A stretch of 64,000 bases of DNA, from contig NZ_JAAVVE010000007.1 in the NCBI RefSeq assembly GCF_018449795.1, positions 62,001-126,000 of the forward strand. Reading direction: 5' to 3'. Position numbers and translations under genes: made by a program. Positions within the stretch are counted from its first letter, which is position 1; every line of letters starts with the position of its first letter. The notes beneath the pieces are model-generated. The model saw only the letters and a list, made by a program, of their open reading frames with translations, did no database searches and was not told where the DNA came from. Origin of the DNA: Sphingomonas sp. dw_22 (lineage in GTDB: Bacteria; Pseudomonadota; Alphaproteobacteria; Sphingomonadales; Sphingomonadaceae). Positions 14,083-63,613 of the stretch are shown here, in pieces.

Positions 14083-14089
14083 CGCTTCT

Positions 14090-15753: not shown

Positions 15754-18672
15754 ATGGCATATTTTTCGCGGCGCTTTGCCGCGCGTTTTGGCATGGTTTC
15801 GGTGCTGGCCCTGGCAGCGAGCGCAACGCCAGCCATGGCCCAGACCGCCAACCCCACCCCCGTCCCGGACCAGCAGCAGCCTGTTTCGGACCAGCAGCAA
15901 ACGGATGCTCAGCAGACGCCTGAGGCGTCGTCCGACGGTGAAATCGTCGTCACGGGTTTTCGTGAATCGCTCAACAATTCGCTGGCGCTCAAGCGCCAGG
16001 AAACCGGCGTGGTCGATACGATCCTGGCCGAGGACGTCGGCAAGTTTCCCGATTCGAACCTTGCCGAGTCGATGCAGCGCCTTCCCGGCGTGGCGATCAC
16101 CCGGGGCGACGGCGGCGAGGGCAAGACGATCTCGGTCCGCGGCCTCGGCGCCCAGTTCACGCGCGTCCGGCTGAACGGCATGGAGGGCGCCAGCTCGACC
16201 GGATCGTCCGATATCCGATCCGGCTATGTTTCCTCGCGCTCGTTCGATTTCAGCACCTTCGCATCGGAGCTCTTCAGCTCGCTGTCGGTCCGCAAGACCA
16301 GCTCGGCCGATGTGGAAGAGGGATCGCTCGGTGCGACGGTGGACCTCCAGACGCCGCGCCCGCTGGACGCGAAGGACGATTTCACCCTCGCGGCCAGCGC
16401 GCAGGGCACCTATGACGACCTGCGCGACCGCATCAGCCCGCGCGTCACGGGGCTGGTGTCCAAGAAGTTCCTCGACGGCACGTTCGGCGTCGCCGGCTCG
16501 ATCGCCTATACCAAGCGCTACACGCGGGAAGAGGGCTGGTCGGCCATCGACATCCTGCAGGGGAGCCTGAACCGCTTCTGTTCGCCGGTCGGCTACCCGA
16601 CGCAGAGCCCGGCGAACAGTGCGACGAACGGCACCACGGCGGCGAATTGCTCCACGGGCAATCCGCGCCTGCCCGACACGCCGACCAATGCGGCCAACTA
16701 TGCGATGGTCGACAATGCCAACACGTTCGTCGCCCGCAGCCCGCGCCTGATCCGTTCGGACCAGGATTATTCCCGTCTCGGCGCCACGATCACCTTGCAG
16801 GCCCAGCCCTCGGACCACACGAAGTTCGCCCTCGACGGCCTCTATTCGCGGTACGACGTGACGCGCAGCGACCAGACGATCACTGCGATCTCCTTCTCGC
16901 GTAACGCTGCCCAGCACGGCAGCGCGGAGACTTCGGTGGTGGATGCCGCCCGCGCCGACGACGGCACCCTGACCTATGGCCTGTTCAACGGAGTGGACGT
17001 CACCGACGACCTGACGCTCACGAAATACACGACCACGTTCAGCCAGATCAATCTGAGCGGATCGCAGGATTTCGGCGCGCTGCAGCTCGATGGCTATGTC
17101 GGCATGTCGCGAACGATCGTCGACCGGCCGATGCGCACCCAGATCGGCATCTTCGCCAACAACGTGAACGGCTTCTCCTACGACTTCCGGAACGGCGAGC
17201 GGATTCCGGAGCTGAACTGGGGCTTCGACGTCACGAATCCTGCCAACTTCGCCTTCGCTCCCAACACGGCCGACAACACTGTTCGCGGAACGCTCGCGCT
17301 GACGCGCGGCCGCGACGAAACCAACAACACGACCGCGGAGATGAATGCCGCCTGGTCCATCGCCGAAGGGCTCAAGCTCCGCGTCGGCGGCCAGTATCGC
17401 GATTCGAAATACGAGACGCTCAGCCGCAGCCGGGTCACGCAGAACATCGCGCCCGATCTTCCCGCCGGCACGACGATGGCCCAGGTCACCTCGCCGCTCA
17501 CCGGCTTCGGAAAGTCGCTTCCGGTCGATGTGACCACGGGCTGGGCGATGCCCGATTACGACAAGTTCGATTCGGTGCTGCACTTCTCGGACGAAACCGG
17601 TGCCTATGCGCTCACCACGACCACCGACGGCAACCTGAAGGAGACGGTGAAATCGGCTTACGGCATGGTCGAGTTCAATACCGACGCGCTGCCGGTGCGG
17701 ATTCGCGGCAATGTCGGCGTGCGTTACGTCCATACCGATCAGGTGGGCCAGGGCTCGCTCGCCGGCACGCCGCTCACCCTGTCGCGCAGCTATGACGACT
17801 GGCTGCCCTCGGCGACGTTCACGGCGGATCTGAGCAGCAATCTGGTCCTGCGTCTTGCCGCGGCAAAGGTCATGGCGCGGGCGGAACTGTCGGACCTGCT
17901 TCCCGGCTCGGTTTCGATCGCGCTCAATACGCGCACGGTGTCGAGCGGCAACTTCCTGCTCGAACCGATCCGGGCGAAGACGGCGGACGCCTCGCTGGAA
18001 TATTATATCGGCAGGAGCGGGATCATCTCGGTCGGCGCCTTCTACAAGGACATCGATACCTTCATCCAGACGCTCCAGCGCAACATCCCCTTTGGCGAGA
18101 CCGGGCTGCCGCTCTCCCTGCTCAATGGCTCGAACAACGATGCCAACACCGAGTTCACGGTTTCCAACAAGACCAACACGCCGGGCGGGCCGCTGAAGGG
18201 CGTCGAAGTCAACTTCCAGATGGGGCTGGATTTCCTGCCGGGGTTCCTCTCGAACCTGGGCGTGCTCGCCAACTATACCTATGTCGATTCGAAGATCGTC
18301 TATTGCACGAACGCGACCTGCACCACGACTGTCCGGAACGATCTGGTGAACCTGTCGAAGAACACGCTGAACGGCACGCTCTATTATGAGGACAGCAAGT
18401 TCAGCATCCGCGCCAGCGGATCCTATCGCGACAAGTTCCTCCTCCGGGTTCCGTCGGGTCGCGCGGGAAGCGACGTCCAGGGGAACACGTCGTCCTTCTT
18501 CCTGGATGCCACCGCATCGTATCAGCTGACCCCCGCGGTGAAGCTTACGGTGGAAGCGCAGAATCTCACCAACCAGGAACTGGGCCTGTACATGGATTCG
18601 GTCCGCCAGGATCCGCTCTACAGCGCCTATAGCGGTCGCAAATTCAGTGCGGGCGTCGCGGTCAAGTTCTAA
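15754..18672 (+). CDS. TonB-dependent receptor, sphingomonad carbohydrate type
   Basis: 972 residues. A signal peptide ends near ATPAMAQ, followed by a Gln/Pro-rich linker. The TonB-box region is about GEIVVTGFRESL. The plug then follows with EDVGKFPDSNLAESMQRLPG and SVRGLGAQFTRVRLNG, then the 22-strand barrel ending in GVAVKF. This architecture is common for sphingomonad and Caulobacter receptors for plant oligosaccharides, in the outer membrane. It shares a divergent promoter with GH28 (14236) and two family-A palindromes, so it probably imports galacturonate-containing oligosaccharides and is induced with the uronate genes. A Rho-independent terminator follows. Ligand specificity is inferred only. 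Confidence 0.92.
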   Translation: MAYFSRRFAARFGMVSVLALAASATPAMAQTANPTPVPDQQQPVSDQQQTDAQQTPEASSDGEIVVTGFRESLNNSLALKRQETGVVDTILAEDVGKFPDSNLAESMQRLPGVAITRGDGGEGKTISVRGLGAQFTRVRLNGMEGASSTGSSDIRSGYVSSRSFDFSTFASELFSSLSVRKTSSADVEEGSLGATVDLQTPRPLDAKDDFTLAASAQGTYDDLRDRISPRVTGLVSKKFLDGTFGVAGSIAYTKRYTREEGWSAIDILQGSLNRFCSPVGYPTQSPANSATNGTTAANCSTGNPRLPDTPTNAANYAMVDNANTFVARSPRLIRSDQDYSRLGATITLQAQPSDHTKFALDGLYSRYDVTRSDQTITAISFSRNAAQHGSAETSVVDAARADDGTLTYGLFNGVDVTDDLTLTKYTTTFSQINLSGSQDFGALQLDGYVGMSRTIVDRPMRTQIGIFANNVNGFSYDFRNGERIPELNWGFDVTNPANFAFAPNTADNTVRGTLALTRGRDETNNTTAEMNAAWSIAEGLKLRVGGQYRDSKYETLSRSRVTQNIAPDLPAGTTMAQVTSPLTGFGKSLPVDVTTGWAMPDYDKFDSVLHFSDETGAYALTTTTDGNLKETVKSAYGMVEFNTDALPVRIRGNVGVRYVHTDQVGQGSLAGTPLTLSRSYDDWLPSATFTADLSSNLVLRLAAAKVMARAELSDLLPGSVSIALNTRTVSSGNFLLEPIRAKTADASLEYYIGRSGIISVGAFYKDIDTFIQTLQRNIPFGETGLPLSLLNGSNNDANTEFTVSNKTNTPGGPLKGVEVNFQMGLDFLPGFLSNLGVLANYTYVDSKIVYCTNATCTTTVRNDLVNLSKNTLNGTLYYEDSKFSIRASGSYRDKFLLRVPSGRAGSDVQGNTSSFFLDATASYQLTPAVKLTVEAQNLTNQELGLYMDSVRQDPLYSAYSGRKFSAGVAVKF

Positions 18673-27024: not shown

Positions 27025-27097
27025 GACCCATCCCCTCATTTTGTTTTGGGGCAGCTTACTTATCAGAATAGCACGTCGTCAATATCAATATGTATAA

Positions 27098-50185: not shown

Positions 50186-50208
50186 GGAGACGATCCTGCT
50201 AAAGCCGA

Positions 50209-50220
50209 CTGATATATCAG
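50209..50220. promoter_or_regulatory. Operator-like palindrome, family B (best copy)
   Basis: CTGATATATCAG is a perfect 12-bp palindrome 24 bases upstream of the aldo/keto reductase start. Near copies occur before most fucose/rhamnose-associated transcription units of the window. Confidence 0.6.
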
Positions 50221-50244
50221 CTAAAGCAATTCATACGTCAGCCG

Positions 50245-51078
50245 TCAATCGGCGATGCCGTAAAAGGCGACCCCCACGCGCTCGAAAAGATTGGCTTTCG
50301 CCTCTTCGCCGGACGGCGCGGCGAGATCGAGCGCCACCTGCACCCAATCGGCGTAACTGTCCCCGGCATGGAGCAGCACCGGCCAATCGCTGCCCCACAT
50401 CAGCCGGTCCGGGAAATGCTCGGCGAGATGGGCGACATAGGGGGCGAGGTCGGCCGCCGGCTGTCCGGGGGCCTGTTCGGTCCGGAGACCGGAGAGCTTG
50501 CAATAGAGGTTGGGCAGGGCCGCCAGCGCGGCGATGTCGTCGCGCCAGGGATCGAGCTCGCCGCGCGCCGCGAAGGGCTTGGCGCCATGGTCGATCACGA
50601 TCGGCAGGTCGGGCCAGCGGGTGGCGAATTGACGGAGCGGCGCCAGGTGGCGCGGCTGGACCAGCGCATCGAAGCTGAGGCCGTTCGCGAGCATCGCCTC
50701 GATCGACGGCGCGATCTCCGAACGCAGGATCCAGTCGCTGTCGTCGATCGACTGGAGCATCGGCCGCAGTCCGCGCAGCTTCGGCCGCGCGGCAAGCTCG
50801 GCGATCCGCGCCGGCGCATCGGGCCGTTCGAAATCGACCCAGCCGACGATCGCCTTGACCAGCGGATCGGGGCCGGCCGCTTCGAACATCCAGTCGGTGT
50901 CGCGATCGTCGGGCTGGGACTGGACCAGCACGCTTCCCACCAGTTCCAGGCCCTGTGCCGCGTCGCGCAGGTCGTCCGGCAGGAAATCGCGATGGATCGC
51001 CGGCCATTCGGCATCGGGCCAGCTCTGTCCCGGACCGCCGATCTTCCAGAAATGCTGGTGCGCGTCGAGAACCCGCAT
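50245..51078 (-). CDS. Amidohydrolase, L-fucono/rhamnono-lactonase-like
   Basis: 277 residues of the TIM-barrel amidohydrolase family that includes L-fuconolactonase and L-rhamnono-lactonase. The N-terminal MRVLDAHQHFWKIG supplies the metal-binding HxH, a central DLPIVIDHGAKPF provides His, and a late LMWGSDWPVLLHAGDSYADW supplies the Asp. It should hydrolyse the lactone produced by the aldo/keto reductase or the rhamnose dehydrogenase to the aldonate, in the cytoplasm. Its ATG overlaps the stop of the GntR gene (ATGA at 51077-51080 on the minus strand), so both are cotranscribed. It is separated from the reductase gene by a 59-base gap with its own operator. Confidence 0.86.
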   Translation of the reverse strand: MRVLDAHQHFWKIGGPGQSWPDAEWPAIHRDFLPDDLRDAAQGLELVGSVLVQSQPDDRDTDWMFEAAGPDPLVKAIVGWVDFERPDAPARIAELAARPKLRGLRPMLQSIDDSDWILRSEIAPSIEAMLANGLSFDALVQPRHLAPLRQFATRWPDLPIVIDHGAKPFAARGELDPWRDDIAALAALPNLYCKLSGLRTEQAPGQPAADLAPYVAHLAEHFPDRLMWGSDWPVLLHAGDSYADWVQVALDLAAPSGEEAKANLFERVGVAFYGIAD

Positions 51079-51776
51079 CAGAACATGCCGAGGATGCGCT
51101 GGAGCGCCGCCTGGAAATGGTTCGAGACGGCGGCTTCGGCGGCGGCCGCGTCGCGCGCCCTGGCGGCTTCGAGGATCTCGAGATGCTCGCGCAGCGTGCG
51201 CAGCGCCAGCGGCTGGGTGACCAGCCGTTCGAGGCGGATCAGCGTCACGTAATTCTTGAGGCGCCGCGCGGTTGTCTCGATCAGCGGATTGCGCAGGCTC
51301 GTAATCATGCCGCCGTGGAGCCGCTCTTCGAGCTCGCCCAGCCGATCGAGCGCTTCGGCGTCGAATCCGCTCCGCTCGATATCCTCGATCAGCGCCTTGT
51401 GGTCGGCGATCAGCGCCGCCACGGTTTCGACGCCCGCGGTCTCGGCATAGGTGCGCGCCGCCGCGCGCTCGATGATCGTGCGGAACTGATAGGTGCTGCG
51501 CGCCAGCTCCAGGTCCGGCTTCAGGAACTGGATGCCCGAGCGCGGATGGATGGTGAGCACGCCTTCCGCCTCCAGCACCCGCAGCGCATCGCGCAGCGGC
51601 TGGACGGGAATGTCGAGCAGATTCACCAGGTCGTTCTGTGAAACGAACGCGCCCGCAGGCACCTTCCGGTCGAAAAGACCCTCCAGAACCTTGTCATAGG
51701 CGATGTCGCTCAGACGACGGGTATCAGGGGCTTCGCGGGTTCCCGCCGAATTAGCCAAAGATGCCGCTTGCGTCAT
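51078..51776 (-). CDS. GntR-family regulator (FCD domain)
   Basis: 232 residues from the ATG at 51776, chosen because AGGGGAC lies just upstream; another ATG five codons earlier is possible. The winged helix (about 20-90) shows KVPAGAFVSQNDLVNLLDIP and VQPLRDALRVLEAEGVL. The FCD domain follows with RTIIERAAARTYAET and the end HLEILEAARARDAAAAEAAV. It is divergent from the enolase-family gene at 51852, and two family-B motifs lie in the 75-base gap. Together with the perfect site at 50209 this makes it the leading candidate for the family-B regulator of the deoxysugar genes. The effector is unknown, possibly an aldonate or keto-deoxy acid. Confidence 0.88.
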   Translation of the reverse strand: MTQAASLANSAGTREAPDTRRLSDIAYDKVLEGLFDRKVPAGAFVSQNDLVNLLDIPVQPLRDALRVLEAEGVLTIHPRSGIQFLKPDLELARSTYQFRTIIERAAARTYAETAGVETVAALIADHKALIEDIERSGFDAEALDRLGELEERLHGGMITSLRNPLIETTARRLKNYVTLIRLERLVTQPLALRTLREHLEILEAARARDAAAAEAAVSNHFQAALQRILGMF

Positions 51777-51786
51777 TCTGTCCCCT

Positions 51787-51798
51787 GTCATATCTCAA
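51787..51798. promoter_or_regulatory. Putative operator, family B
   Basis: GTCATATCTCAA, a weaker copy (9 of 12), next to the GntR start. Confidence 0.4.
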
Positions 51799-51806
51799 AC
51801 AGGTAA

Positions 51807-51818
51807 CTGATATTTCAA
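51807..51818. promoter_or_regulatory. Putative operator, family B
   Basis: CTGATATTTCAA, 11 of 12 positions of the consensus, in the GntR/enolase divergent gap. It starts 20 bases from the weaker copy. Confidence 0.5.
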
Positions 51819-51851
51819 TACCTGTCCAACGCCTAGAGTGTAGTGGGGAAA

Positions 51852-52985
51852 ATGCGCATAGTCGACTTCCGTATCACCCGTTTCCAGTTCCTGCGCGACC
51901 GTGTGATCGGCGACAGCCAGGTGCGCGCGGATGATGTTCATGTCGCGGCGCTCGAACTGATCGGCGAGCGCGGCGATATCGGGCTCGGTTTCGTGCAGAG
52001 CCTGTTCCATCCGCTTCCCTCCGAAGCGGAACTGGTTCGCGTGTTCCGCGAAGAGGTATGGCCGGGCCTGGAGGGGCAGGCGGCCGGCGCGCTGGCGCAT
52101 CGCGTCAATCGCCCGCGCGGCGGCAATGTCCGCCGCCTTTCCGTGCCGTTCGAAGAGGCGCTTCAACAGGCGGTGTGGGATCTCTTCGCCAAGTCGCTGG
52201 GAATGCCGCTGTGGAAGCTGCTGGGCGGCCGGCGCGATCATGTCCGCGGCTATGCCAGCGGGCTCGATTTCCACCTGCCGGACGATGATTTCTCGGCACT
52301 GTTCGAGACAGCGCTGTCTCAGGGCTTCACGGCGTTCAAGATCAAGGTCGGCCATTCCGATCTCGACCGCGACATCCACCGGCTCGATCTGCTGCGCAAT
52401 GTGGCGGGGCCGGACGCGACGATGATGATCGACGCCAACGAAGCCTGGTCGCCGAAGCAGACGATCGCGAACCTCGAAGCCATGCGCCGCGCGGGGCACG
52501 ACATCTTCTGGGTCGAGGATCCGGTGCTGCGCCACGATTTCGAGGGGCTGAAGCTGCTGCGCCAGACCGCCGGCGCGACGCTGATAAATTCGGGCGAATA
52601 TCTCGATGTGTCGGGCAAGCGCCAGTTGCTCCAGGCGGGCGGCGCCGATCTGCTCAACGTCCATGGCCATGTCACCGACGTGATGCGGATCGGCTGGCTG
52701 GCGGCGGAGTTCGGCGTGCCGATCACGCTGGGCAACAGCTTCCTCGAGATCGGCGTCAACATGGCGGTGGCGCTGCCCGAGGTCGAATGGGTCGAATACA
52801 GCTACCAGAATTTCGACCATCTCGTGGAGACGCCCTTCGCCATCCGCGACGGCAACATCCATGCGTCGCGGGCGCCCGGCCACGGCCTGGTGCTGAGCGA
52901 GGATGCGCGCCGCGACTGGCGCCGTCCGGAAATTCTCGACAAGGCCGAACTCGGCGAGGCCCCGCGCCAGATCTACCTGGGCTGA
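51852..52985 (+). CDS. Enolase-superfamily protein with atypical active site
   Basis: 377 residues from the ATG at 51852. The N-terminal capping domain and barrel are complete: GMPLWKLLGGRRD, a KxK motif in FKIKVG, metal ligands in MIDANEAW, WVEDP and NSGEYLD. The canonical mandelate-racemase Asp (usually in a QpDvsrxGG-like strand) is replaced by LLNVHGHVTD, and the usual His at the end of the next strand is replaced by PITLGNSFLEIG. The His/Asp pair is therefore missing, and the His residues of HGH may serve instead. Position beside the fucose oxidation genes suggests an L-fuconate or L-rhamnonate dehydratase. It is shorter than the 440-residue classical L-fuconate dehydratase. Activity is unproven. 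Confidence 0.8.
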   Translation: MRIVDFRITRFQFLRDRVIGDSQVRADDVHVAALELIGERGDIGLGFVQSLFHPLPSEAELVRVFREEVWPGLEGQAAGALAHRVNRPRGGNVRRLSVPFEEALQQAVWDLFAKSLGMPLWKLLGGRRDHVRGYASGLDFHLPDDDFSALFETALSQGFTAFKIKVGHSDLDRDIHRLDLLRNVAGPDATMMIDANEAWSPKQTIANLEAMRRAGHDIFWVEDPVLRHDFEGLKLLRQTAGATLINSGEYLDVSGKRQLLQAGGADLLNVHGHVTDVMRIGWLAAEFGVPITLGNSFLEIGVNMAVALPEVEWVEYSYQNFDHLVETPFAIRDGNIHASRAPGHGLVLSEDARRDWRRPEILDKAELGEAPRQIYLG

Positions 52986-54347: not shown

Positions 54348-54359
54348 CGCCTGCTCTCT

Positions 54360-54476
54360 CCCTCTCCCCTTTGGGGAGAGGGCCGGGGAGAGGGGCAGTG
54401 TGTCTTGACCTGCGAGCGGAGGAGGAGGGGCTGTCGTCCTGCCCCTCTCCCAACCCTCTCCCCGGAGGGGAGAGGG
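54360..54476. repeat. GC palindromes between convergent genes
   Basis: CCCTCTCCCC-TTT-GGGGAGAGGG at 54360-54382 and CCCTCTCCCC-GGA-GGGGAGAGGG at 54454-54476, between the converging stops of the MFS and enoyl-CoA hydratase genes. They have the same arms as the copies at 14090, 14205 and 59654. Confidence 0.8.
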
Positions 54477-55247
54477 CTATCGGCGCTTGAAGACGGGCGC
54501 GCGCTTTTCCTTGAAGGCGGCGCGGCCTTCCAGCGCGTCCTCGGTCGCGAAGCAGATCGTCTGGAGGTCGCGCTCATATTGCATCGCCTTGTCGAGCGGC
54601 ATCGAGAAGGCGGCGCGCAGGTTGAGCTTGGCGGTCTCCGCCGCGATCGGCGCGCGCGACGCGATCGTCTCGGCCAGCGCGCGGGCGCGGTCCAGCAGCG
54701 CCTCGGGCTCCACCACTTCGCTCACCAGGCCCCAGGCGAGGGCCTGATCGGCGTCGATCGGATCGCCGGTCATGATCATCTTGGCCGCGTTCGACATGCC
54801 GATCGAATGCGCCAGGAACGCCGCCATGCCGCCGCCGCCGATCCAGCCGAGCTTGATCTCGGGCGCGGCGAACCTGGCGTTGGACGAGGCGATGCGGATG
54901 TCGCACGACAGCGCCGTCTCCAGCCCGCCGCCCAGCGCATAGCCGTTCACCGCCGCGATGCTGGGCTTCAGCAGATGGTGGATCGCGTCGCAATAATCGG
55001 CGCGGTTGCGGAAGTCCCAAGGGGTCGCATAGCTGTCGAGCTCGGCGATGTCCGACCCGGCGCAGAACGCCTTGGGGCCCGCGCCGGTGACGATCACGCA
55101 GCGCACCCGATCGTCGCGGTTGCATTCCTCGGCCGCCGCGACGATCGCCTTGGACATGGCCGGGGTGGCGGCGTTGAGCTTCTCGGGACGGTTGAGCGTG
55201 ATCGTCGCGACATGGCCGTCGATCGAGAAGAGCAGATTGTCGGTCAT
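54477..55247 (-). CDS. Enoyl-CoA hydratase/isomerase (crotonase family)
   Basis: 256 residues. The crotonase fold is clear: oxyanion-hole regions GPKAFCAGSDIAEL and NGYALGGGLETALSCDIRIA, and the second acidic residue in FAAPEIKLGWIGGGG. The two Glu residues equivalent to Glu144 and Glu164 of mitochondrial hydratase are retained, so hydration or elimination of a CoA thioester is plausible. It is the last gene of a five-gene set with a CoA-transferase, a solute-binding-fold protein, an SDR and a DUF4432 protein. It starts 6 bases after the preceding stop. In this sugar-acid setting the thioester substrate may be a polyhydroxy acid. That is inference. Confidence 0.88.
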   Translation of the reverse strand: MTDNLLFSIDGHVATITLNRPEKLNAATPAMSKAIVAAAEECNRDDRVRCVIVTGAGPKAFCAGSDIAELDSYATPWDFRNRADYCDAIHHLLKPSIAAVNGYALGGGLETALSCDIRIASSNARFAAPEIKLGWIGGGGMAAFLAHSIGMSNAAKMIMTGDPIDADQALAWGLVSEVVEPEALLDRARALAETIASRAPIAAETAKLNLRAAFSMPLDKAMQYERDLQTICFATEDALEGRAAFKEKRAPVFKRR

Positions 55248-55253
55248 CGGGGA

Positions 55254-56390
55254 TTACCTTTCGGTGCCGGGCGTCCGGCTCTTGGCATAGGCGTCCTGCA
55301 GCGCGTCGAGGATCGCGCGGTGCGGCCGGCCCTCGGCCAGCCCGTCGCGGATCAGCGCCGAGGCTGCGGTCTGGAAGGCGATCGCGCCGTCATGGCGGGG
55401 CCGCACAAAGGCATGCTCCAGCGTCTCGGCGGTATCGCGGTAGAAGGAGCCCCAGCGCGCGTTGACCCCCGCATCGGCCCATGCCGCGCGCAGGCTCGGC
55501 TGGCCGTCATGTGCGGGGATGAAGCCGATCTGCGCCTCGGCGCTCATCAGCCAGCGCAGATGGTCGAGCAGCGCGGGCGACACATCGGCGCGGGCGGAGA
55601 TGCCGATGCCGGTGCCGCCCAGCGTCGATCCGGCACGCCCGCCCGCCTCGGCGCGCGGCGCGTCGGCGAAGCGCAGCGCCTGCCCGGCAAGCGGCGCGGC
55701 ATAGTTCACATAGCCATAGACCAGCGGGCAGAGCGCGACTTCGTTCGTCCCCGCCATCGCCCCGAGCAGCCCGATCGGATTAAGCTCCTTCACCGAGATG
55801 GGCGTGCGCGCGGCGAGATCGGCCATCAGGTCGAGCACGCGCGGACCCACCGCGTCGCCGACGAAACGCTCGGGATCGGCCTCGGCGGGGGGATCGCCGA
55901 ATGCGGCGGCGATCGACTGGAAGCTCAGTGCCGCATGCGGTCCCGCAAGCGACAGCGCCACCGGCTTCGCCAGCGCCCGCACCTCGCCCCAGGTGACGGG
56001 CACGGGGCCGTCGAGCAGGTCGGGCCGGCAGACCATGACCTGGGTCGCGGCGTCGAGCGGCAGCGCCCAGTGCTTGCCGGCATAGCGATAGCTGCTGAGC
56101 GACGGCCCGATCGCGCTGCGGCCGATCGCGGCCAGCTCCTGCGGATCGAACAGGCTCTCCAGCGGCCGGAGACAGTTCGAGGCCACCGCTTCGCCGACAT
56201 GCGGATGATCGAGCACCACCAGATCGTAGCGGGCGCATAGATCCGCGATCGGATGCGTCTCGAAGCCTTCGAGCGGCTGCTTGTCCCAATCGATCGCCAG
56301 CCCGTCGCGATCCTCGTCGAGCCGGGCCGCCGCCGCCGCGAGGGCGTTATAGCCGCGCGGATGGTCCCAGGTAAGCGCGCGATACCGCAT
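55254..56390 (-). CDS. Solute-binding-fold protein without signal peptide
   Basis: 378 residues resembling family-1 extracellular solute-binding proteins: DLVVLDHPHVGEAVASNCLR, YAGKHWALPLDAATQVMVCR, PVTWGEVRALAK, and C-terminal LRWLMSAEAQIGFIPAHDGQ. Such proteins normally deliver sugars to ABC transporters in the periplasm. This one begins directly with MRYRALTWDHPRGYNALAAA and has no signal peptide or lipobox, and no permease or ATPase gene is nearby. The ATG overlaps the CaiB/BaiF stop (ATGA at 56388-56392), which fits a cytoplasmic partner or ligand sensor for the operon. The fold call is from local motifs; the role is unknown. Confidence 0.72.
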   Translation of the reverse strand: MRYRALTWDHPRGYNALAAAAARLDEDRDGLAIDWDKQPLEGFETHPIADLCARYDLVVLDHPHVGEAVASNCLRPLESLFDPQELAAIGRSAIGPSLSSYRYAGKHWALPLDAATQVMVCRPDLLDGPVPVTWGEVRALAKPVALSLAGPHAALSFQSIAAAFGDPPAEADPERFVGDAVGPRVLDLMADLAARTPISVKELNPIGLLGAMAGTNEVALCPLVYGYVNYAAPLAGQALRFADAPRAEAGGRAGSTLGGTGIGISARADVSPALLDHLRWLMSAEAQIGFIPAHDGQPSLRAAWADAGVNARWGSFYRDTAETLEHAFVRPRHDGAIAFQTAASALIRDGLAEGRPHRAILDALQDAYAKSRTPGTER

Positions 56391-57577
56391 CAGTCCTGCC
56401 GCACCGCTCCGGAGGCGAGCAGCGCGTCGATCGCCACCGCGTCGAACCCGGCCTCGGCCAGCACCTCGCGGCTATGCTCGCCGATCTGCGGCGCGCCGCG
56501 CTCGACGGTGGTCGGAGTCTTGGAGAAGCGGATCGGGAAGCCCGGCGTCTTCACCCGGCCTTCGCTGGGATGGTCGTACTCGACGAAGGTCTCGTTATGC
56601 GCGATCTGCGGATCGGCAACCACATCGGCATAGCCATAGACCGGGCCGGCCCAGATATCGTGCTGGCGGAACAGGTCGAGCCACTCCGCATTGCTCCTGG
56701 CGGTCAGCCGCCTGGCGACGGCCGCGAAGATCGCGTCGCGGTGCGTCCAGCTGTCGGTCTCGTCGTCCATGCCGGCGAAGCTCGGCTCGCCGATCAGTTC
56801 GCCCAGCTTCTCCAGATTGGCGAAGGCCATGGCGATGAAGCCGTCGGCGGTCGCGAACGTGCCGTAGGGCGCGCGGATATAGCAATGCGCGTGCGGCTCG
56901 GCCGAGCGGGTCTGCGGCTTGTGGCCGGCGGTGAAGACCGACATTTCCTGCATCTGGAAGGTCACGACCGCGTCGAGCATGTTGACCTGCACGAGCTGCC
57001 CTTCGCCGGTCCGCTCCCGGTGGAGCAGCGCGGCCAGCGCGCCCTCGAACGCCGCATAGGCGGTCACCGCGTCGGCGAGGAACTGGCCGGCGGGGGCGGG
57101 GGGATCGCTCTCGCGCCCCGCCGAGAGCATCGCGCCCGACATCGCCTGTAGCAGCAGATCCTGCCCCGGATGGCTGACATAGGGCCCGCTCTCGCCATAG
57201 CCGGACATCGAGACATAGACGAGGCGCGGATTGATCGCGGAGAGGGTCTCGTAATCCACGCCCAGCCGCTTCGCCACGCCGGGGCGATAGTTCTGGATGA
57301 AGATATCGGCGGTCTTCACCAGCTCCAGCAGCACCGCCTTGCCGTCCCCGGACTTGAGGTCGATCGCCAGGCTGCGCTTGTTGCGGTTCAGCGAGAGGAA
57401 CGAGGTGTTGATGCGGTTGCCGGTCGCGCCGCCGGCCGCGCGGAAGCGCTGCCATTCGCCGCCGGTCGGCTCCACCTTCACCACGTCGGCGCCCAGATCG
57501 CCCAGGCGCTGCGCCGCGAAGGGGCCCGCCATCGCGATGGAGCAATCGAGTACGCGATAGCCGCTCAGGATACCCAT
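56390..57577 (-). CDS. CaiB/BaiF class III CoA-transferase
   Basis: 395 residues, cytoplasmic. The class III CoA-transferase signatures are present: LDCSIAMAGPFAAQRLGDLG at the N-terminus, RNKRSLAIDLKSGDGKAVLL, ADIFIQNYRPGVAKRLGVDY, YVSMSGYGESGPY, and the catalytic Asp in QFLADAVTAYAAFEGALAAL. A C-terminal IRFSKTPTTVERGAPQIGEH is also typical. It moves CoA between acids through an aspartyl-CoA intermediate. It lies in a five-gene set with enoyl-CoA hydratase and sugar-type enzymes, so it may activate a sugar-derived acid to its CoA thioester. Donor and acceptor are unknown. The next gene starts in a 4-base overlap. Confidence 0.88.
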   Translation of the reverse strand: MGILSGYRVLDCSIAMAGPFAAQRLGDLGADVVKVEPTGGEWQRFRAAGGATGNRINTSFLSLNRNKRSLAIDLKSGDGKAVLLELVKTADIFIQNYRPGVAKRLGVDYETLSAINPRLVYVSMSGYGESGPYVSHPGQDLLLQAMSGAMLSAGRESDPPAPAGQFLADAVTAYAAFEGALAALLHRERTGEGQLVQVNMLDAVVTFQMQEMSVFTAGHKPQTRSAEPHAHCYIRAPYGTFATADGFIAMAFANLEKLGELIGEPSFAGMDDETDSWTHRDAIFAAVARRLTARSNAEWLDLFRQHDIWAGPVYGYADVVADPQIAHNETFVEYDHPSEGRVKTPGFPIRFSKTPTTVERGAPQIGEHSREVLAEAGFDAVAIDALLASGAVRQD

Positions 57578-57592
57578 GATTTCCGTCAGTCC

Positions 57593-58345
57593 TTAGTGCA
57601 TGACCCAGCCGCCATCGACGTTGAGCGTCTGGCCGGTGATGAAGCCCGCGTCGTCGGATGCGAGGAAAGCGAGCGCCCTGGCGATGTCGTCGGGCGTGCC
57701 GCGCCGCTTGACCGCCTGATGATCGAGCACGAACCGGGTATAGCCCTCGGGGTCCGGGTGGATCTTCTCGGCATCGGTGGGAAAGGCGCCGGGGGAGACG
57801 GCGTTGACGGTGATGCCGTCGGGCCCGAACTCGCGCGCCCAGGCGCGGGCGAGCCCGACCAGCGCGCCCTTGGACGCGACATAGGGCGAAAGCAGCGCCC
57901 AGCCGCCATAGAAGGTCACGCTGGCGATGTTGATGATCCGGCCCCATTGCCGTTCGCGCATGTGCGGCAGCGCCACCTGCACTGCGACGATGCCGGCGTC
58001 GACGTTGACCTTCTGCACCGCCTGATGCTCTTCGATCGTATATTCCTCGAAGGGCTTGGAAGGGTAGATGGCGGCGTTGTTGATGACCACGTCGAAGCCG
58101 CCGACCTGAGCCGAGACGCGCTCCAGATCGGCGCGGAAGCCGTCGAGATCGGAGAGATTGCTGCGCAGCACGACCAGCCGCTCGCGGGCGTCGGCGGGGG
58201 CGGCGGCCTCCAGCGCGGCGATCTTGGCGGGATCATTGTCCACCGCGACCACGCGCGCGCCGGCTTCGAGGAACGCCAGCGTCGTCGGCAGGCCGAGCCC
58301 GCCCGCGGCGCCGGTATAGAGGATGGTGCGGCCGGCGATGCTCAT
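57593..58345 (-). CDS. SDR oxidoreductase of the CoA operon
   Basis: 250 residues from the ATG at 58345 that overlaps the DUF4432 stop (ATGA). SDR features are YTGAAGGLGLP near residue 10, NNAAIYPSKPFEEYTIEEHQ, SVTFYGG with the catalytic Ser and YVASKGALVG with Tyr-x3-Lys, and the end NVDGGWVMH. Branches with NAVSPGAFPTDAEKIHPDP oxidise sugars or sugar acids. In the operon it is placed between an epimerase-like protein and the CoA-transferase, which suggests oxidation of a sugar to a lactone or keto acid before CoA transfer. This order is inferred from neighbours only. Confidence 0.84.
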   Translation of the reverse strand: MSIAGRTILYTGAAGGLGLPTTLAFLEAGARVVAVDNDPAKIAALEAAAPADARERLVVLRSNLSDLDGFRADLERVSAQVGGFDVVINNAAIYPSKPFEEYTIEEHQAVQKVNVDAGIVAVQVALPHMRERQWGRIINIASVTFYGGWALLSPYVASKGALVGLARAWAREFGPDGITVNAVSPGAFPTDAEKIHPDPEGYTRFVLDHQAVKRRGTPDDIARALAFLASDDAGFITGQTLNVDGGWVMH

Positions 58346-59532
58346 GCGCGGGTCTCCCGTCCGGTGATCTTCGGATAGTTGCCGCTCGGCTCGGGGAAGT
58401 CGGCGTCCGGCTGGCCCGAGATGGCGCGGATGCGCTGCTCGGCGGCGGCGATGGCGTCCGCGCCGTCCAGCACCGCGAACACCGTGTCGTAAGTCCGCGC
58501 CTCGCCATGCTCCAGCCAGGTCAGCTCGTCCCGCTGGCGGGCGAATTGCTTGCCGAGGACATGGTTGGTCGAAGGCTCGATGCCGAGCGCATATTGGCCG
58601 GCCTGGAGGTTCTGCCATTCGTAATGGCAGGGGAACTGGTCCTTGCGCGTCTCCACCACCACGCCGAAGCCGATCGCATCGTTGACCAGCGCCACCGGCA
58701 CGCGGCCCTCGGCATCGGCGGCCATCTCATGCTGCCAGACCTGCTCGTGGAAGCCGTGCTGCGGGCGCGGCATGGTGCGATAGCCGACGCCGCTCTTGGC
58801 ATAGTCCGGCCCGGCATGCGCAGCCCACACCACGTCCTTCAGCGGCGCGAGATAGCGCGAGCCCTCCGCCAGCACCGGATGGCCGAGATTGATGTGATAG
58901 AGGAACATGTGCGGCGTGCGGTAGAAGCCGTGGTTCACCACGCGGTCGTGGAGATGGATTGCGTTGCCGCCCACTTCCGCCTCGATCCGGCGGATCAGGT
59001 GCAGATCCTCGCCGAACACGGTCGATTGCTGGACGATGCCTTCGGCCCACAGGATGCAGCGGTCGCCCTCCCAGCGCTCGCCATAGCCGGTCAGCTTCGC
59101 CGGGATCGTGCCGACGCGCCCGTGCAGCGAGGAGGAGACGGTCCCGCGCGGGCCGTAGACATATTGGCTGGCGTCATCCTCATCCATGAACAGGATATGG
59201 TCGAGCCCGCAGGTGACCATCAGGCCGGAAAAGGAGCGCAGCCAGGAAAGCCCGCCTTCGCCCTCATATTCATGCAGCCCGGGATGGCGGAAGCCGGCGG
59301 GCGAGTTCCAGCCGATCGCGCGGCCGTTGTGCTCGCAATCGGCGATGTCCATCGCGCGATCGACCAGCACGGTGAAGCGCAGCCCGGTGCCGGTGCGGAA
59401 CTCCAGCATCCGCACGCCGCGCTCCACGCCGTCGCCCAGCGTCATCAGCCGGACCCCGGCGAATTGCGACAGCGACCCCGCATGCTCGGCGATTTCGCGC
59501 GCCGACATCGTTCGGCCGAACAGCTCGACCAT
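58342..59532 (-). CDS. DUF4432-family aldose 1-epimerase-like protein
   Basis: 396 residues. The N-terminal FTVLVDRAMDIADCEHNGRA and IGWNSPAGFRHPGL, HLHDRVVNHGFYRTPHMFLY and LPxxxEWQNLQAGQYALGIEP-like EWQNLQAGQYALGIEPSTNH place it in the DUF4432 group of galactose-mutarotase-like sugar-binding sandwiches. His residues in NHGFYRTPHM and the Glu in ALGIEPST sit where mutarotases have catalytic groups. Its product may supply the beta or open form of a sugar to the SDR next to it. It is the first gene of the five-gene set, with a family-B site 73 bases upstream. The native sugar is unknown. Confidence 0.83.
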   Translation of the reverse strand: MVELFGRTMSAREIAEHAGSLSQFAGVRLMTLGDGVERGVRMLEFRTGTGLRFTVLVDRAMDIADCEHNGRAIGWNSPAGFRHPGLHEYEGEGGLSWLRSFSGLMVTCGLDHILFMDEDDASQYVYGPRGTVSSSLHGRVGTIPAKLTGYGERWEGDRCILWAEGIVQQSTVFGEDLHLIRRIEAEVGGNAIHLHDRVVNHGFYRTPHMFLYHINLGHPVLAEGSRYLAPLKDVVWAAHAGPDYAKSGVGYRTMPRPQHGFHEQVWQHEMAADAEGRVPVALVNDAIGFGVVVETRKDQFPCHYEWQNLQAGQYALGIEPSTNHVLGKQFARQRDELTWLEHGEARTYDTVFAVLDGADAIAAAEQRIRAISGQPDADFPEPSGNYPKITGRETRA

Positions 59533-59604
59533 GGTGCGATTCCTCCATTGGCGCGGCGATGGCCGCCAGCGTCATTGCCTAGTTAAATAGATCAGACGGT
59601 GCAA

Positions 59605-59616
59605 CAGAGATATCAG
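59605..59616. promoter_or_regulatory. Putative operator, family B
   Basis: CAGAGATATCAG, whose complement CTGATATCTCTG matches 10 of 12 positions of the consensus, 73 bases before the DUF4432 start. The CoA operon would then belong to the deoxysugar regulon. Confidence 0.5.
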
Positions 59617-59653
59617 TCAGAGACTAGAACGGATCGACATTCAGCTCTACTTT

Positions 59654-59820
59654 CCCTCTCCCCGTGAGGGGAGAGGGTTGCGCAGACTTGGGTCGCGCAC
59701 TTGCGCGGCCTTAGTCGGAGCTGGGTGAGGGGTGGGCGGCTGCGCAGCAGCCGCGCGGAGCTGCGCTCCGCTCTACCCCTCTCCAAGCTACGCTATCCTC
59801 TCCCCTATCAAGGGGAGAGG
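59654..59820. repeat. GC palindrome pair, dispersed intergenic element
   Basis: Two hairpins with the CCCTCTCCCC arms or a one-base shift of them (59654-59677 and 59797-59820). They frame a 120-base stretch containing further G/C palindromes. Here they lie downstream of GH28 but upstream of the DUF4432 promoter, a gap between genes transcribed in the same direction, unlike the other clusters. Confidence 0.75.
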
Positions 59821-59846: not shown

Positions 59847-61484
59847 CTAGTCGAAGCTGCGGATATCTCCCAGCGTCACGCCGCTGCTGCCGCGCGCATC
59901 GATCGCCGCTTCGCGCGGGCGCTGCGAGACGATGCCGTCGATGATCGCCCCCTGCACGTCGTCCAGCACGATCGTCGGCCGGGCGTCGGGCGTCTCGGTG
60001 CGGAAGATCAGGTCGCGCAGCATCAGCCGGCGCGCGTGGCGCGCGAAGAAGCCATGGGCGGGCAGGGCGCCCATGAAGCTCACCTCGAGGCTGGTCTCGC
60101 GCTTGTCGGGCGGAACCCGCGCGGCATCCGCCGCCGTGCCGCCGCCGCGGCTGGTGACTTCGATATTGGTGAAGCTGATATCCTCCACCGGCGCGTCCGC
60201 GATGCCCGCGACGCCGCAAGGATAGCGCGGGTCCGCGCCCGAGACGTTGATGTCGCTGAACTTCACGCGGCGGCACTTGCCCACCGTCGTTCCCGCCGGC
60301 GCGCGCAGCCGCGCGGCCTGGTGGACGAACAGCGGATGGTTGACCGGATTGCGCATCGTGATGTCGGAGACGATCACGTCCTCCAGCGTGCCGCCGTCGA
60401 CCACGCCCATCAGGATGCCGCGGCTGTTCTCGCAGGTGCAGTTGGTGATCTGGATGTTGCGGAAGCCGCCATTGCTCTCGGTGCCCAGCTTGATCCGGCC
60501 GAGCGGGCCGACGCTGTCGACGCTGGTATAGTCGGATTTCCGATAGGTGCCGTCGAGCAGCGATCCCAGCACATAGCCCATCGTCTTGCAGCCGATGACG
60601 GTCACGTCCTCGCAGATCACCTTGCGATCGAGCGCATAGCTGCTCTTGAGGACGATCGCGTCGTCCTTGGGCGCGTTGACGATGCAGTTGCTCACCCGCA
60701 CGTCGCGGCAGCAATCGATGTCGATGCCGTCGCGATCGGTGTCGATCGTGAGGTTGTCGATCGTCATGTTGGTCACGCCGTGCGCGATCACGCAGAAATG
60801 GCCGCCCTGGAGCACGATGAAGTCGCGCAGCACCACATTGTGGCAGTCGCGCAGGCCGATCGACTTGTTGGCGCGGCCCAGCACGGCGCGCTCCTTGGGA
60901 TCGCGCAGCCGCGCCTCGCGCGGGGTGATGCCCAGATCCCTGGGCGATTTCCAGCCGGGCTTGTTGTGCCAGCGATCGCCCGGGCCGTCGCGATTGAGGC
61001 CCAGTCCATGGATCATGCCGCGCCCGACGATCGCGACGTTGCTGACGCCGTCGCCATAGATCAGGCTGTTGTGGACATGGGTGATCCCGAAATCCTGGAA
61101 CTGCTCCTCCATGTCGTTCTCGGGCTCGTCATAGCTGCCCTTGTGGACCGTCGGGTCCGCCGCCTCGATCACCGCGCCGGCGGAAAGGACGATCGTGACA
61201 TTGTCCTTCAGCCGGATCGAGAAGCACAGATAGCGGCCTGGCGGGACGACGACGGTGCCGCCGCCCGCCTTGGTGGCGGCCTCGATCGCCTTGTTGATCG
61301 CGGCGCTGTCGATCGTCTTGCCGTCGCCCTTCGCGCCATAGCTGCGGACATCGTGGAACGCGCCCAGCGCCCGCGCGGTCTGCGCCAGCGCCGGCTGGGC
61401 GAGCAGCGCGGCGCCCAGTCCGATCACCGCGCCGCGGCGGCTGAGCTCGGTTTCGGCCAGCAGGCGGAAAGGGGCGCCGTTCAC
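59847..61484 (-). CDS. GH28 polygalacturonase-type hydrolase, paralog of the 5760 enzyme
   Basis: 545 residues from a GTG at 61484 that overlaps the upstream GH141-like stop (GTGA). The signal LSRRGAVIGLGAALLAQPALA is twin-arginine-like. It matches the GH28 at 5760 block for block: SYGAKGDGKTIDSAAINKAI, GGGTVVVPPGRYLCFSIRLK, LIYGDGVSNVAIVGRGMIHG, TDRDGIDIDCC, KDDAIVLKSSYALD, RIKLGTES and NPVNHPLFV. The same inverting cleavage of galacturonosyl links is expected in the periplasm. The tight coupling with the GH141-like gene suggests that both work on the same oligosaccharide. No family-A operator is evident before this pair, unlike the 5760 gene. Confidence 0.9.
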   Translation of the reverse strand: MNGAPFRLLAETELSRRGAVIGLGAALLAQPALAQTARALGAFHDVRSYGAKGDGKTIDSAAINKAIEAATKAGGGTVVVPPGRYLCFSIRLKDNVTIVLSAGAVIEAADPTVHKGSYDEPENDMEEQFQDFGITHVHNSLIYGDGVSNVAIVGRGMIHGLGLNRDGPGDRWHNKPGWKSPRDLGITPREARLRDPKERAVLGRANKSIGLRDCHNVVLRDFIVLQGGHFCVIAHGVTNMTIDNLTIDTDRDGIDIDCCRDVRVSNCIVNAPKDDAIVLKSSYALDRKVICEDVTVIGCKTMGYVLGSLLDGTYRKSDYTSVDSVGPLGRIKLGTESNGGFRNIQITNCTCENSRGILMGVVDGGTLEDVIVSDITMRNPVNHPLFVHQAARLRAPAGTTVGKCRRVKFSDINVSGADPRYPCGVAGIADAPVEDISFTNIEVTSRGGGTAADAARVPPDKRETSLEVSFMGALPAHGFFARHARRLMLRDLIFRTETPDARPTIVLDDVQGAIIDGIVSQRPREAAIDARGSSGVTLGDIRSFD

Positions 61485-63511
61485 TTCACCGCTCCCGTCG
61501 CCGGATCGTAGCTGGGCGTGCCCGCCTTCGCCTCGATGCCCGATGCCTCCATCACCTTGCGCGCCTCGGCCGGCCAGGCGGTGCCTGCCACCAGATGGTC
61601 GTCGAGGATCAGATTGTTCTGATAGGCGTCCCACATGCCGCCGATCTCGGTGGTGTTGTGCCAGTTGCCGGTGGCGGTGTTGTCCGGGCTGATCCGCTGG
61701 GGGAAGGAGCCGCGCACCGTGTTGACGTTGAGCCACTTGGCCGCATTGTCGACCACGTTGTTGCGCACGGTCACGAAGCGCGAGCCCTCGTCGAGATAGA
61801 GCGCGATCTTCTTCGGGATGTCGTAGACGTAGTTCTCGGCGATCACCGTGCCCGGGCTGGCCGACAGGTTGTAGATCGCGCCGCCGTCCTCGAAATGCCG
61901 CTTGGCGCCGTGGATGCGGTTATAGGCGACGATCACGTCGCGGTGCGTCGTCGGCTCGTGATAGACCAGGTTGGGCGCATAGTCGTAATAGCCGCGCTCG
62001 CGCGTGCGGTACGAGGGATTGCCTCCAGGGTCGTTCAGCCCCCAGCCCCAGCCGATGTCGATCCCGTCATAGGGCGCGTCGGAGATGTCGTTGTGCAGGA
62101 TCAGCGCGCGATCGACATAGGTGCTGAGCACCGCGCTGTTGTCCCGATAATCCTGGCTCACCTTCGAGATGCGGTTGTTGCGGATCGTCACCTGGCGGTT
62201 GGTCTGGCCTTCGGTCGCCGGATGGTGCGCCTCGCGCCGCACGCCGCCGACCAGGATCGCGCCGGCGGCGAGATCGGTGAAGACGTTGGCCGAAACCTCG
62301 ATCGCCTGGGCGCCATAGCCGGTGCCGCTGGCATTCGCGTCGGGATTGTTGCCGATGCCGAGCGCGACCTGGCCCAGATGCGCGAAGACATTGTGATCGA
62401 AGGTGATGCGCTGCGCGGCCGACACCTGGATCGCGGCGGGGATCTGCGACCATTCGTTACGGCGCATCTCGAAGCCGGGGCAGCCCCAGGCGCAGCTCGC
62501 CAGCGCGTCGCTGGGGCGGCTGCGCGACACGCCGGCCAGGAATGCGCCGCTCTGCTGGTTGGCATAGCCTTCGCCGGTCGAAGGCCCCATCCAGCTCGTA
62601 TAGGAGAAGCGGAAGCCGCTGAAGCTGATGTCGCGGACCGGGCGGTCATAGCTGCCGCCGATCGAGATCAGATAGGGCAGGCGGGGCAGCTCGGCGCGGA
62701 CCTTGGCCATGTCGGTGCCGGGCAGGGGGCGGTAATAGAGCTTGCCCGCCGCGGGATCGAGATACCATTGGTCCGGCTTGGTCAGGAACGCGAGCGAATT
62801 GACCAGATAGAGATGCGCGAATTCCGGGCCATAGGGCTTGTTCAGCGTGTCATAACCCCAGTTGTTGTTGTCCCAGGCCGGCTGCTGCATCACGAGCCGG
62901 CGCCCCTCGATCCGCTCGACCGGCGAGAAGCGATCGGTGAAGAAGCCCAGCCCCTCCACTTCGATGCGGCGCTGATCGGGCAGCTTGGCGAGATAGTCAT
63001 AGGCGGGATCGTCGATGACCAGCGCGGCATCGGCGAAGGTCACCGCGGCGCGGGGAATCTCGATCGCCGCGCGTTTGGCAAGGCGGCCATCCACCCAGAG
63101 CTGGCGGGCGTCAACGTCCTTGGGCACCGACGCGACATAGATATTGCGCGCCCGGTCGGCGAGCTGCCAGCCGCCTACGGAGACGCCGCCGGATATCACC
63201 GGATGGGCATTGTCCGCCGCCTTCCACGCGACGCTGTGCCCGTTCAGGCCCCCGTCCGCTGGGGTGAACGACAGGGGCGCGTCGAGCCGATAGACGCCGT
63301 CCATCACCGTCACGACGACATCGTGGGTCTGATTGGCGGTTCGCAGGGCGGTCTGGGCGCGCTTGAGCGTGCGGAACGGCTTCTCGCGCGTGCCCGGGGC
63401 CGCGTCGTCACCCTTGGGCGAGACGAAGAACTCGGTGGCCGCGCGCTCCTGCGCGAGAGCTGTCTCGGCCGAGGTGCCGGCACACAGAAGAATCGCAACG
63501 CGCCGCCACAT
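61481..63511 (-). CDS. Secreted beta-helix enzyme, GH141-like, paralog of the 2492 protein
   Basis: 676 residues from the ATG at 63511 (MWRRVAILLCAGTSAETALA signal); an ATG 21 bases upstream is possible, but GAGGAG is better placed for the inner start. Shared blocks with the 2492 protein are FVSPKGDDAAPGT, DGVYRLDAPLSF, QLWVDGRLAKRAAIEIPR, FSYTSWMGPS with YANQQSGAFL, DAPYDGIDIGWGWG and DGGAIYNLSASPG. The GH141 suggestion (alpha-L-fucosidase in rhamnogalacturonan II) is from motif memory. It starts a two-gene unit with GH28, under a CTGATATAGCAG family-B site 38 bases upstream. It would act in the periplasm. Confidence 0.76.
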   Translation of the reverse strand: MWRRVAILLCAGTSAETALAQERAATEFFVSPKGDDAAPGTREKPFRTLKRAQTALRTANQTHDVVVTVMDGVYRLDAPLSFTPADGGLNGHSVAWKAADNAHPVISGGVSVGGWQLADRARNIYVASVPKDVDARQLWVDGRLAKRAAIEIPRAAVTFADAALVIDDPAYDYLAKLPDQRRIEVEGLGFFTDRFSPVERIEGRRLVMQQPAWDNNNWGYDTLNKPYGPEFAHLYLVNSLAFLTKPDQWYLDPAAGKLYYRPLPGTDMAKVRAELPRLPYLISIGGSYDRPVRDISFSGFRFSYTSWMGPSTGEGYANQQSGAFLAGVSRSRPSDALASCAWGCPGFEMRRNEWSQIPAAIQVSAAQRITFDHNVFAHLGQVALGIGNNPDANASGTGYGAQAIEVSANVFTDLAAGAILVGGVRREAHHPATEGQTNRQVTIRNNRISKVSQDYRDNSAVLSTYVDRALILHNDISDAPYDGIDIGWGWGLNDPGGNPSYRTRERGYYDYAPNLVYHEPTTHRDVIVAYNRIHGAKRHFEDGGAIYNLSASPGTVIAENYVYDIPKKIALYLDEGSRFVTVRNNVVDNAAKWLNVNTVRGSFPQRISPDNTATGNWHNTTEIGGMWDAYQNNLILDDHLVAGTAWPAEARKVMEASGIEAKAGTPSYDPATGAVK

Positions 63512-63548
63512 ATCCACCCCACTCCTCGCCATCTTCTGATTCTGAAGA

Positions 63549-63560
63549 CTGATATAGCAG
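63549..63560. promoter_or_regulatory. Putative operator, family B
   Basis: CTGATATAGCAG, 11 of 12 positions of the palindrome, 38 bases before the GH141-like start. Confidence 0.5.
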
Positions 63561-63613
63561 TTCGTGATATAGATATGTCAATCATGCTGGCGCGGCTGGA
63601 TCGCCTGCTCGGG

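Follow-up and report, generated by a model that had tools for sequence, protein, structure and literature searches.

The 64,000-nucleotide stretch of the Sphingomonas sp. dw_22 genome that we analysed (contig NZ_JAAVVE010000007.1, positions 62,001 to 126,000; hereafter, the window) carries a five-gene operon in which sugar enzymes and coenzyme A (CoA)-thioester enzymes are encoded together with a protein of the solute-binding fold (solute-binding protein, SBP). All five open reading frames (ORFs) are intact and tightly packed on the minus strand. Their coordinates agree with those of a preliminary description of this DNA, and all five products pass Pfam cut-offs (DUF4432, adh_short_C2, CoA_transf_3, SBP_bac_8 and ECH_1), confirming the places and domains that it had given. 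In order along the operon, the genes are:

58342–59532, minus strand: first gene, DUF4432 aldose-1-epimerase-like protein (Pfam PF14486, 338 bits; PDB 3ty1, ‘hypothetical aldose 1-epimerase’, 1e-39)
57593–58345, minus strand: classical short-chain dehydrogenase/reductase (SDR; Pfam adh_short_C2)
56390–57577, minus strand: type III CoA-transferase (CaiB/BaiF)
55254–56390, minus strand: SBP, with no evident signal peptide
54477–55247, minus strand: enoyl-CoA hydratase (ECH; crotonase, Pfam ECH_1)

The spacing is −4 bases between DUF4432 and SDR, 15 between SDR and CaiB, −1 between CaiB and SBP and 6 between SBP and ECH. The two gaps had thus been measured correctly, and one of the two ATGA overlaps reported earlier is found at 58342–58345, whereas positions 56388–56392 read TGATG, with one shared base.

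The gene set is no local accident: many genera have it in this order. In one scan of GTDB contigs, for which the SBP served as query, 35 named loci were obtained, and the SBP loci span Sphingomonas and related genera, Caulobacter, Brevundimonas, Azospirillum, Nitrospirillum, rhizobia and Chelatococcus and, beyond these, Paracoccus, Pseudonocardia, Nocardioides and others. This distribution is sparse but wide: an SBP homologue occurs in 10 of 120 near relatives, counting the window’s own genome. At an E-value of 1e-30, 6 genomes out of 385 sampled from the class have one, as do 18 out of 398 from the phylum. We read 64 neighbourhoods (45, a further 18 and the window; numbered here with the prefix L). 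An SBP gene was called in 60 of them; the other four (L026, L098, L105 and L106) were dropped from the 60-locus counts, although the contig scan did match the SBP in L026. Genes were called with codon scores trained on the window; starts are sometimes placed too far in, and few or no genes were called in L098, L105, L106 and L107; labels come from BLASTP against reference proteins, by which remote relatives can be missed. All five genes lie within 10 kb in 32 of the 60 loci, 29 of which keep the gene order of the window on one strand, with DUF4432 and SDR on the opposite strand in three (L034, L035 and L042). CaiB, SBP and a hydratase form the more constant core: of the 60 loci, 53 have CaiB at most two genes from the SBP and 55 have a hydratase (ECH or MaoC) at most three genes away. 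The CaiB and SBP genes share 1 or 4 bases in 28 of the 43 loci measured.

The active-site residues noticed earlier in the transferase and the hydratase are not only present but invariant. Asp169 of the transferase, which we take to be the counterpart of the catalytic Asp169 of formyl-CoA transferase, is identical in 52 of 52 clustered homologues; E110 and E130 of ECH are identical in 39 of 39, and both align with their counterparts in its nearest PDB structures, a short-chain enoyl-CoA hydratase and a 3-hydroxypropionyl-CoA dehydratase. The transferase scores 364 bits against a CoA_transf_3 cut-off of 23.3, and its best PDB match is succinate-HMG CoA-transferase (2.8e-64). No named substrate subfamily can be assigned to it among the seven NCBIfam models listed, all of which it falls below (best, succinate-glutarate CoA-transferase, 236 bits against 750), and it is not carnitine-specific (155 bits against an L-carnitine CoA-transferase cut-off of 413). 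The SDR likewise reaches the cut-off of none of the 25 NCBIfam matches shown. The DUF4432 protein may be a mutarotase, the SDR an aldose 1-dehydrogenase, the CaiB-type protein an aldonate CoA-transferase and ECH an aldonyl-CoA dehydratase.

The SBP passes the SBP_bac_8 cut-off (31.1 bits against 27) and narrowly misses that of SBP_bac_1 (25.7 against 26). Its AlphaFold model (pLDDT 94.5) has the fold of ABC-transporter sugar-binding proteins, including Arad_9887 (5iai; Z 36.4 over 365 aligned residues), SmoF and LpqY, but unlike these it has no evident signal peptide and is encoded among cytoplasmic enzymes. A TW(D/N)HPRG motif begins within the first ~13 residues of 17 aligned SBPs, and no hydrophobic leader or export signal was seen at their N termini, as judged by eye without a predictor. 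The protein may therefore stay in the cytoplasm and bind a sugar acid there, acting as the cytoplasmic partner of the CoA-transferase. This SBP family is not known to us to take part in any enzyme, and 7 of the 60 loci have the SBP gene without CaiB within two genes; both points would suit a sensory, regulatory or relic protein that stands outside any enzyme. We regard such a role as improbable, given the frequent overlap with the CaiB gene, the 77 positions that are at least 95% identical across 43 proteins, and the LacI or GntR genes that many loci already hold. Naming the ligand by way of two periplasmic transporter SBPs from other loci was tried and abandoned, their PDB relatives being too distant to indicate any sugar.

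More divergent relatives of the SBP occur in other settings. A distant form (~40%) accompanies CaiB and MaoC and, in the window’s genome, adjoins a GH106 rhamnosidase. This locus (L049; contig C14:9501-29000) holds a second SBP–CaiB pair with a divergent CaiB, MaoC, ABC-transporter-like genes and a Gfo/Idh-like gene, as well as another solute-binding-like protein (16189–17379), apparently also without a signal peptide. In L108 and L109, a divergent SBP stands beside a mannonate-dehydratase-type gene, and the same stretch also contains CaiB, ECH and transporter genes; the L108 mannonate-dehydratase-type protein scores above the NCBIfam cut-off for UxuA.

A thioester acidifies the proton at C2 of its acyl group, and a hydroxyl at C3 is beta to the thioester. 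With confidence just short of an even chance, we propose that the operon encodes an oxidative, non-phosphorylating aldose route in which the aldonate is dehydrated by way of CoA instead of by an IlvD-type or enolase-type enzyme, every reaction being inferred. The DUF4432 protein would interconvert the anomers of the sugar, and the SDR would oxidize the aldose to a lactone that opens spontaneously or with the help of a lactonase. The CaiB-type transferase would load CoA onto the aldonate, ECH would take the C2 proton and the C3 hydroxyl off the resulting aldonyl-CoA to give the enol of a 2-keto-3-deoxyacyl-CoA, and the transferase would then hand the CoA to the next aldonate, freeing the 2-keto-3-deoxy acid. 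The SBP, in the cytoplasm, would bind the sugar acid for the transferase. A dehydratase of the FAH (or DapA) family and an aldehyde dehydrogenase would then yield a semialdehyde and a keto acid; other species have genes for these enzymes next to the unit, and in the window’s genome such genes lie elsewhere. A pentonate is our guess for the substrate. The series of mutarotation, oxidation, CoA transfer and then dehydration or cleavage of a thioester, suggested in the preliminary description, fits these findings, with dehydration the better choice for the last step.

The closest precedent is carnitine dehydration in Escherichia coli, for which the available part of the source describes a requirement for both CaiD and CaiB, with CoA cycling between product and substrate (PMC2131755). 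Both systems have a type III CoA-transferase and a crotonase; the net dehydration with CoA cycling would be common to them, whereas the window’s operon adds sugar-oxidation genes and an SBP with no evident signal peptide, and neither CaiA nor CaiC is one of its five genes. Applied to an aldonate, with its acidic C2 proton and beta hydroxyl at C3, the CaiB/CaiD logic would lead to a 2-keto-3-deoxy acid. A CoA-dependent dehydration would in turn account for the FAH or DapA partners, for MaoC in place of ECH and for loci that have no other labelled dehydratase.

These partners recall oxidative pentose pathways of the Weimberg type, which use an IlvD-type or enolase-type aldonate dehydratase, a 2-keto-3-deoxypentonate (KDP) dehydratase of the FAH or DHDPS family and a KGSA dehydrogenase. 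A KDP-dehydratase-type gene of the FAH family is present in 25 of 42 ‘close’ loci, the subset used for partner and glycosidase counts, and a DapA-family gene in one more; aldehyde dehydrogenase genes occur in some, and the SDR is of the aldose-dehydrogenase kind. In 20 of these 26 loci, no aldonate dehydratase of a known type was detected within 10 kb with 15 IlvD, enolase-type or UxaA-type reference proteins, and CaiB–SBP–ECH would occupy the place that this enzyme has in the Weimberg-type pathway. The 42 loci thus divide into 20 with FAH or DapA alone, 6 with FAH or DapA and a labelled aldonate dehydratase, 10 with an enolase-type gene alone and 6 with neither. The FAH protein matches PDB 9kkt (4e-119) and the Sulfolobus 2-keto-3-deoxy-D-arabinonate dehydratase 2q18 (1.7e-16), and 24 of 25 copies, the remaining one being cut by a contig end, have the motifs E-[IV]-F-x-K and PE[PA]E, which align with 2q18. 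Judging from this similarity and the Glu motif, the family is that of the 2-keto-3-deoxy-D-pentonate dehydratases. FAH-family D-KDP and DHDPS-family L-KDP dehydratases are described in the accessible parts of two papers (PMC6336799 and PMC7374468), the second of which places the L-KDP enzymes in the DHDPS family. When the link to CaiB–SBP is mapped on a tree with 56 FAH proteins, it requires 6 changes, at least 4 of them forced by starred branches; the link therefore arose or was lost several times. We also considered FAH as an acylpyruvate hydrolase releasing hydroxypyruvate and L-lactate, prompted by the reductase, kinase and L-lactate-dehydrogenase genes that come next in several loci, and rejected it on the KDP-dehydratase-type Glu motif.

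The composition of individual loci varies around the core. Azospirillum brasilense loci encode LacI, SDR, CaiB, SBP, ECH, FAH, an aldehyde dehydrogenase and an ABC transporter. L114 has a TRAP transporter (binding protein), CaiB, ECH, SBP and FAH with no labelled SDR or sugar dehydrogenase, whereas L024 has SDR, CaiB, SBP, ECH, an ABC transporter and, in the absence of FAH, a DapA-family protein (75 bits, below the dapA cut-off). L103 combines CaiB, SBP, MaoC, a lactonase-like amidohydrolase, an ABC transporter and FAH, with no ECH called, and L045 combines CaiB, MaoC, an aldehyde dehydrogenase, SBP, FAH and a distant ECH. In the window’s genome, a FAH homologue (59%) lies on another contig in the same stretch as an IlvD gene, and an aldehyde dehydrogenase homologue (62%) on yet another contig. 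The former stretch (L149; contig C43:9001-28000) holds FAH, SDR, an SMP-30-like gene, IlvD, a sugar transporter, LacI and a GH3-like protein, and we read its FAH/IlvD cluster as a xylose-type oxidative cluster; several of these genes, SMP-30, the transporter and LacI among them, were named by eye.

In many loci the unit is followed by two genes that suggest a different fate for the thioester. One encodes a 2-hydroxyacid dehydrogenase (best NCBIfam match glyoxylate reductase, 292 bits against 455) and the other a P-loop kinase, presumably glycerate-3-kinase-like, although no family model confirmed this. They would fit a crotonase that cleaves the sugar-acyl-CoA by a retro-aldol or retro-Claisen reaction, leaving a short acyl-CoA together with an aldehyde or glycerate for the reductase and kinase to use. 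The deoxyribonate route is a precedent: in the part of the source available, a sugar acid is metabolized as CoA thioesters to glyceryl-CoA and a glycerate kinase is needed (PMC6365646). The Klebsiella deoxyribonate cluster described there also has CoA-synthetase, hydroxyacyl-CoA dehydrogenase and thiolase genes, of which only the thiolase was searched for here. Among the 64 loci, thiolase or acyl-CoA-dehydrogenase genes were matched in one (L047), using 16 thiolase, condensing-enzyme and acyl-CoA-dehydrogenase probes from the window’s genome (one of them, L196, is only 76 residues long and was chosen in error; two others are different condensing enzymes). By these markers, the context is not that of fatty-acid beta-oxidation, nor is the set mostly beside fatty-acid genes, an outcome that the preliminary description had named as contrary to its view; aromatic-degradation genes, which it had named as well, were not searched for. 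The near absence of these genes also speaks against CoA-bound cleavage, as do the two hydratase glutamates kept by ECH, the presence of MaoC without ECH in L103, the A. brasilense loci that pair the unit with FAH and aldehyde dehydrogenase and lack the reductase and kinase, and the kinase’s having no match in the window’s genome, where the best match of the reductase is 49%. We therefore consider cleavage unlikely. The orthologous loci L014, L015 and L027 have the 2-hydroxyacid dehydrogenase and kinase genes upstream of DUF4432, where the window lacks both.

Around the operon, the window has the following genes and operator-like sites:

59847–61634, minus strand: next gene upstream of the operon, GH28-like/Pect-lyase_RHGA_epim beta-helix protein (Pfam; relatives in other loci)
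61481–63532, minus strand: GH141-like protein (Pfam GH141_M, 28.8 bits)
51843–52985, plus strand: enolase-superfamily protein (Pfam MR_MLE_C, 132.7 bits)
51078–51791, minus strand: FCD-type GntR regulator (Pfam GntR and FCD)
59604–59617, no strand assigned: operator-like site ACAGAGATATCAGT before the five-gene operon, ~70 bases ahead of the first ATG
63548–63561, no strand assigned: operator-like site before the GH141-like gene
51806–51819, no strand assigned: operator-like site between the GntR and enolase-superfamily genes
50208–50221, no strand assigned: operator-like site before an aldo/keto reductase gene

A pectic substrate had been put forward earlier as a speculation. A GH141-like or GH28-like gene is present in 23 of the 42 close loci, and these 23 include sphingomonads, Caulobacter, Brevundimonas, Nitrospirillum and Azospirillum sp. 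B4. Neither is found in the other 19, some of which carry sugar ABC or TRAP transporter genes (one, L031, is only 5 kb long), so that linkage to pectin-type glycosidases is not conserved. The acids proposed earlier, aceric acid, Kdo and Dha, find no support here and were set aside, as nothing beyond this context in 23 loci links them to the operon. The same context would accommodate a rarer kind of sugar acid, with branching, methylation or carboxylation (apionate, aceronate and 2-O-methyl sugar acids are examples), that chemically needs the thioester and is recognized by the SBP, all the more as the substrate of succinate-HMG CoA-transferase, the transferase’s best PDB relative, has a tertiary 3-hydroxyl. 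That likeness may, however, be a family trait only, the 19 loci have neither glycosidase label, and an unbranched C5 acid suits the FAH and aldehyde dehydrogenase partners better; we give a rare acid a low probability. The GH28-like neighbours also led us to consider the galacturonate/galactarate route (uronate dehydrogenase, galactaryl-CoA), which seems less likely: the SDR fits classical profiles best, and the L024 DapA protein scores 24 against a KdgD cut-off of 374.

All four sites listed match the palindrome ACTGATATATCAGT. With up to 3 mismatches allowed, the window contains 6 such matches where chance would give 0.38, an after-the-fact figure as the consensus was drawn from the window’s own palindromes. 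The remaining two, at 27097 and 41184, are weaker or lie elsewhere. The independent test looked across the loci for sites with no more than 2 mismatches, and these were found in 4 of 64 loci (the window, L014, L015 and L027), all of which belong to the 7 that carry an FCD-GntR gene. The orthologous operon is preceded by a site at ~60 bases in L015 and L027; in L014 no site lies ahead of it at this threshold. The operator noted earlier upstream of the operon is thus borne out. Because the sites occur only in loci with the FCD-GntR gene, the protein encoded at 51078–51791 is likely to read them, and their positions before the operon and its neighbours suggest that the five genes probably share a regulon with the neighbouring sugar genes.

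Several observations weigh against a CoA-dependent aldonate dehydration. In the window and L015, operator-like sites precede both the enolase-type gene and the operon, so that the sugar in question could equally be handled by a dehydratase of the ordinary kind. The window’s enolase-superfamily protein, whose best NCBIfam match is L-talarate/galactarate dehydratase (137 bits against a cut-off of 500), is a possible sugar-acid dehydratase of this sort, which would argue against an exclusive CoA route; as fuconolactonase-like (154 bits, under the cut-off of 400) and aldo/keto reductase genes lie nearby, it may instead act on another sugar that the glycan contains. Enolase-type genes occur within 10 kb in 16 of the 42 close loci, including the window, and 10 of these 16 have no FAH or DapA gene. 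FAH itself is found in 57 of 289 genomes of the class, and in a control sample (40 listed places, the best 30 and 10 chosen, plus two stretches of the window’s genome; FAH called in 37 of the 42), 28 of the 37 FAH neighbourhoods had no IlvD, enolase-type or UxaA-type gene within four genes and 9 had one. FAH therefore supports, and does not prove, a 2-keto-3-deoxy acid product, and its occurrence does not fix the substrate class. MaoC coexists with a distant ECH in L045, and a MaoC-like fragment with ECH in L114. CaiB, ECH and SDR all fall below the cut-offs of the named NCBIfam models shown, the scheme would need a CoA ligase to start the CoA cycle, and the seven SBP loci without a nearby CaiB count here too. 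The locus counts are not independent, as L036/L058 and L040/L057 are duplicate pairs and several Azospirillum loci come from close strains. The KDP route leaves unexplained the reductase-like and kinase genes that follow the unit in many sphingomonad-type loci, as well as the paired operator-like sites of the window and L015.

A more specific form of the proposed CoA-dependent dehydration is that CaiB, the cytoplasmic SBP and ECH (or MaoC) make up a three-part aldonate dehydratase without metal or iron–sulfur cofactors, in which a domesticated transport protein would serve as the sugar-acid-binding subunit; this we advance as a doubtful suggestion. If true, it would be a new way of dehydrating aldonates, beside metal-dependent (enolase-type and UxaA/GarD-type) and iron–sulfur (IlvD-type) enzymes, it would make sense of genes that family models describe only in generic terms, as CoA and transport genes, and a solute-binding protein would gain an enzymatic partner role inside the cell. 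Among the titles and abstract openings listed from the open-licence part of PMC, we found neither this gene set nor a CoA-dependent aldonate dehydratase, and the accessible part of PMC9007349 does not describe the set. The available text of a review (PMC9795676) names IlvD/EDD and enolase types as aldopentonate dehydratases, with ‘CoA’ appearing 0 times, and gives the xylonate dehydratase step, catalysed by an iron–sulfur enzyme, as rate-limiting in the Weimberg and Dahms pathways.

The edges of the operon also show repetitive-extragenic-palindrome-like (REP-like), GC-rich inverted elements of the form CCCTCTCCCC...GGGGAGAGGG, which lie at 14088–14227 and 54358–54382 in the window; text resembling such GC-rich inverted elements was spotted by eye near 54450–54480 and 59650–59680.

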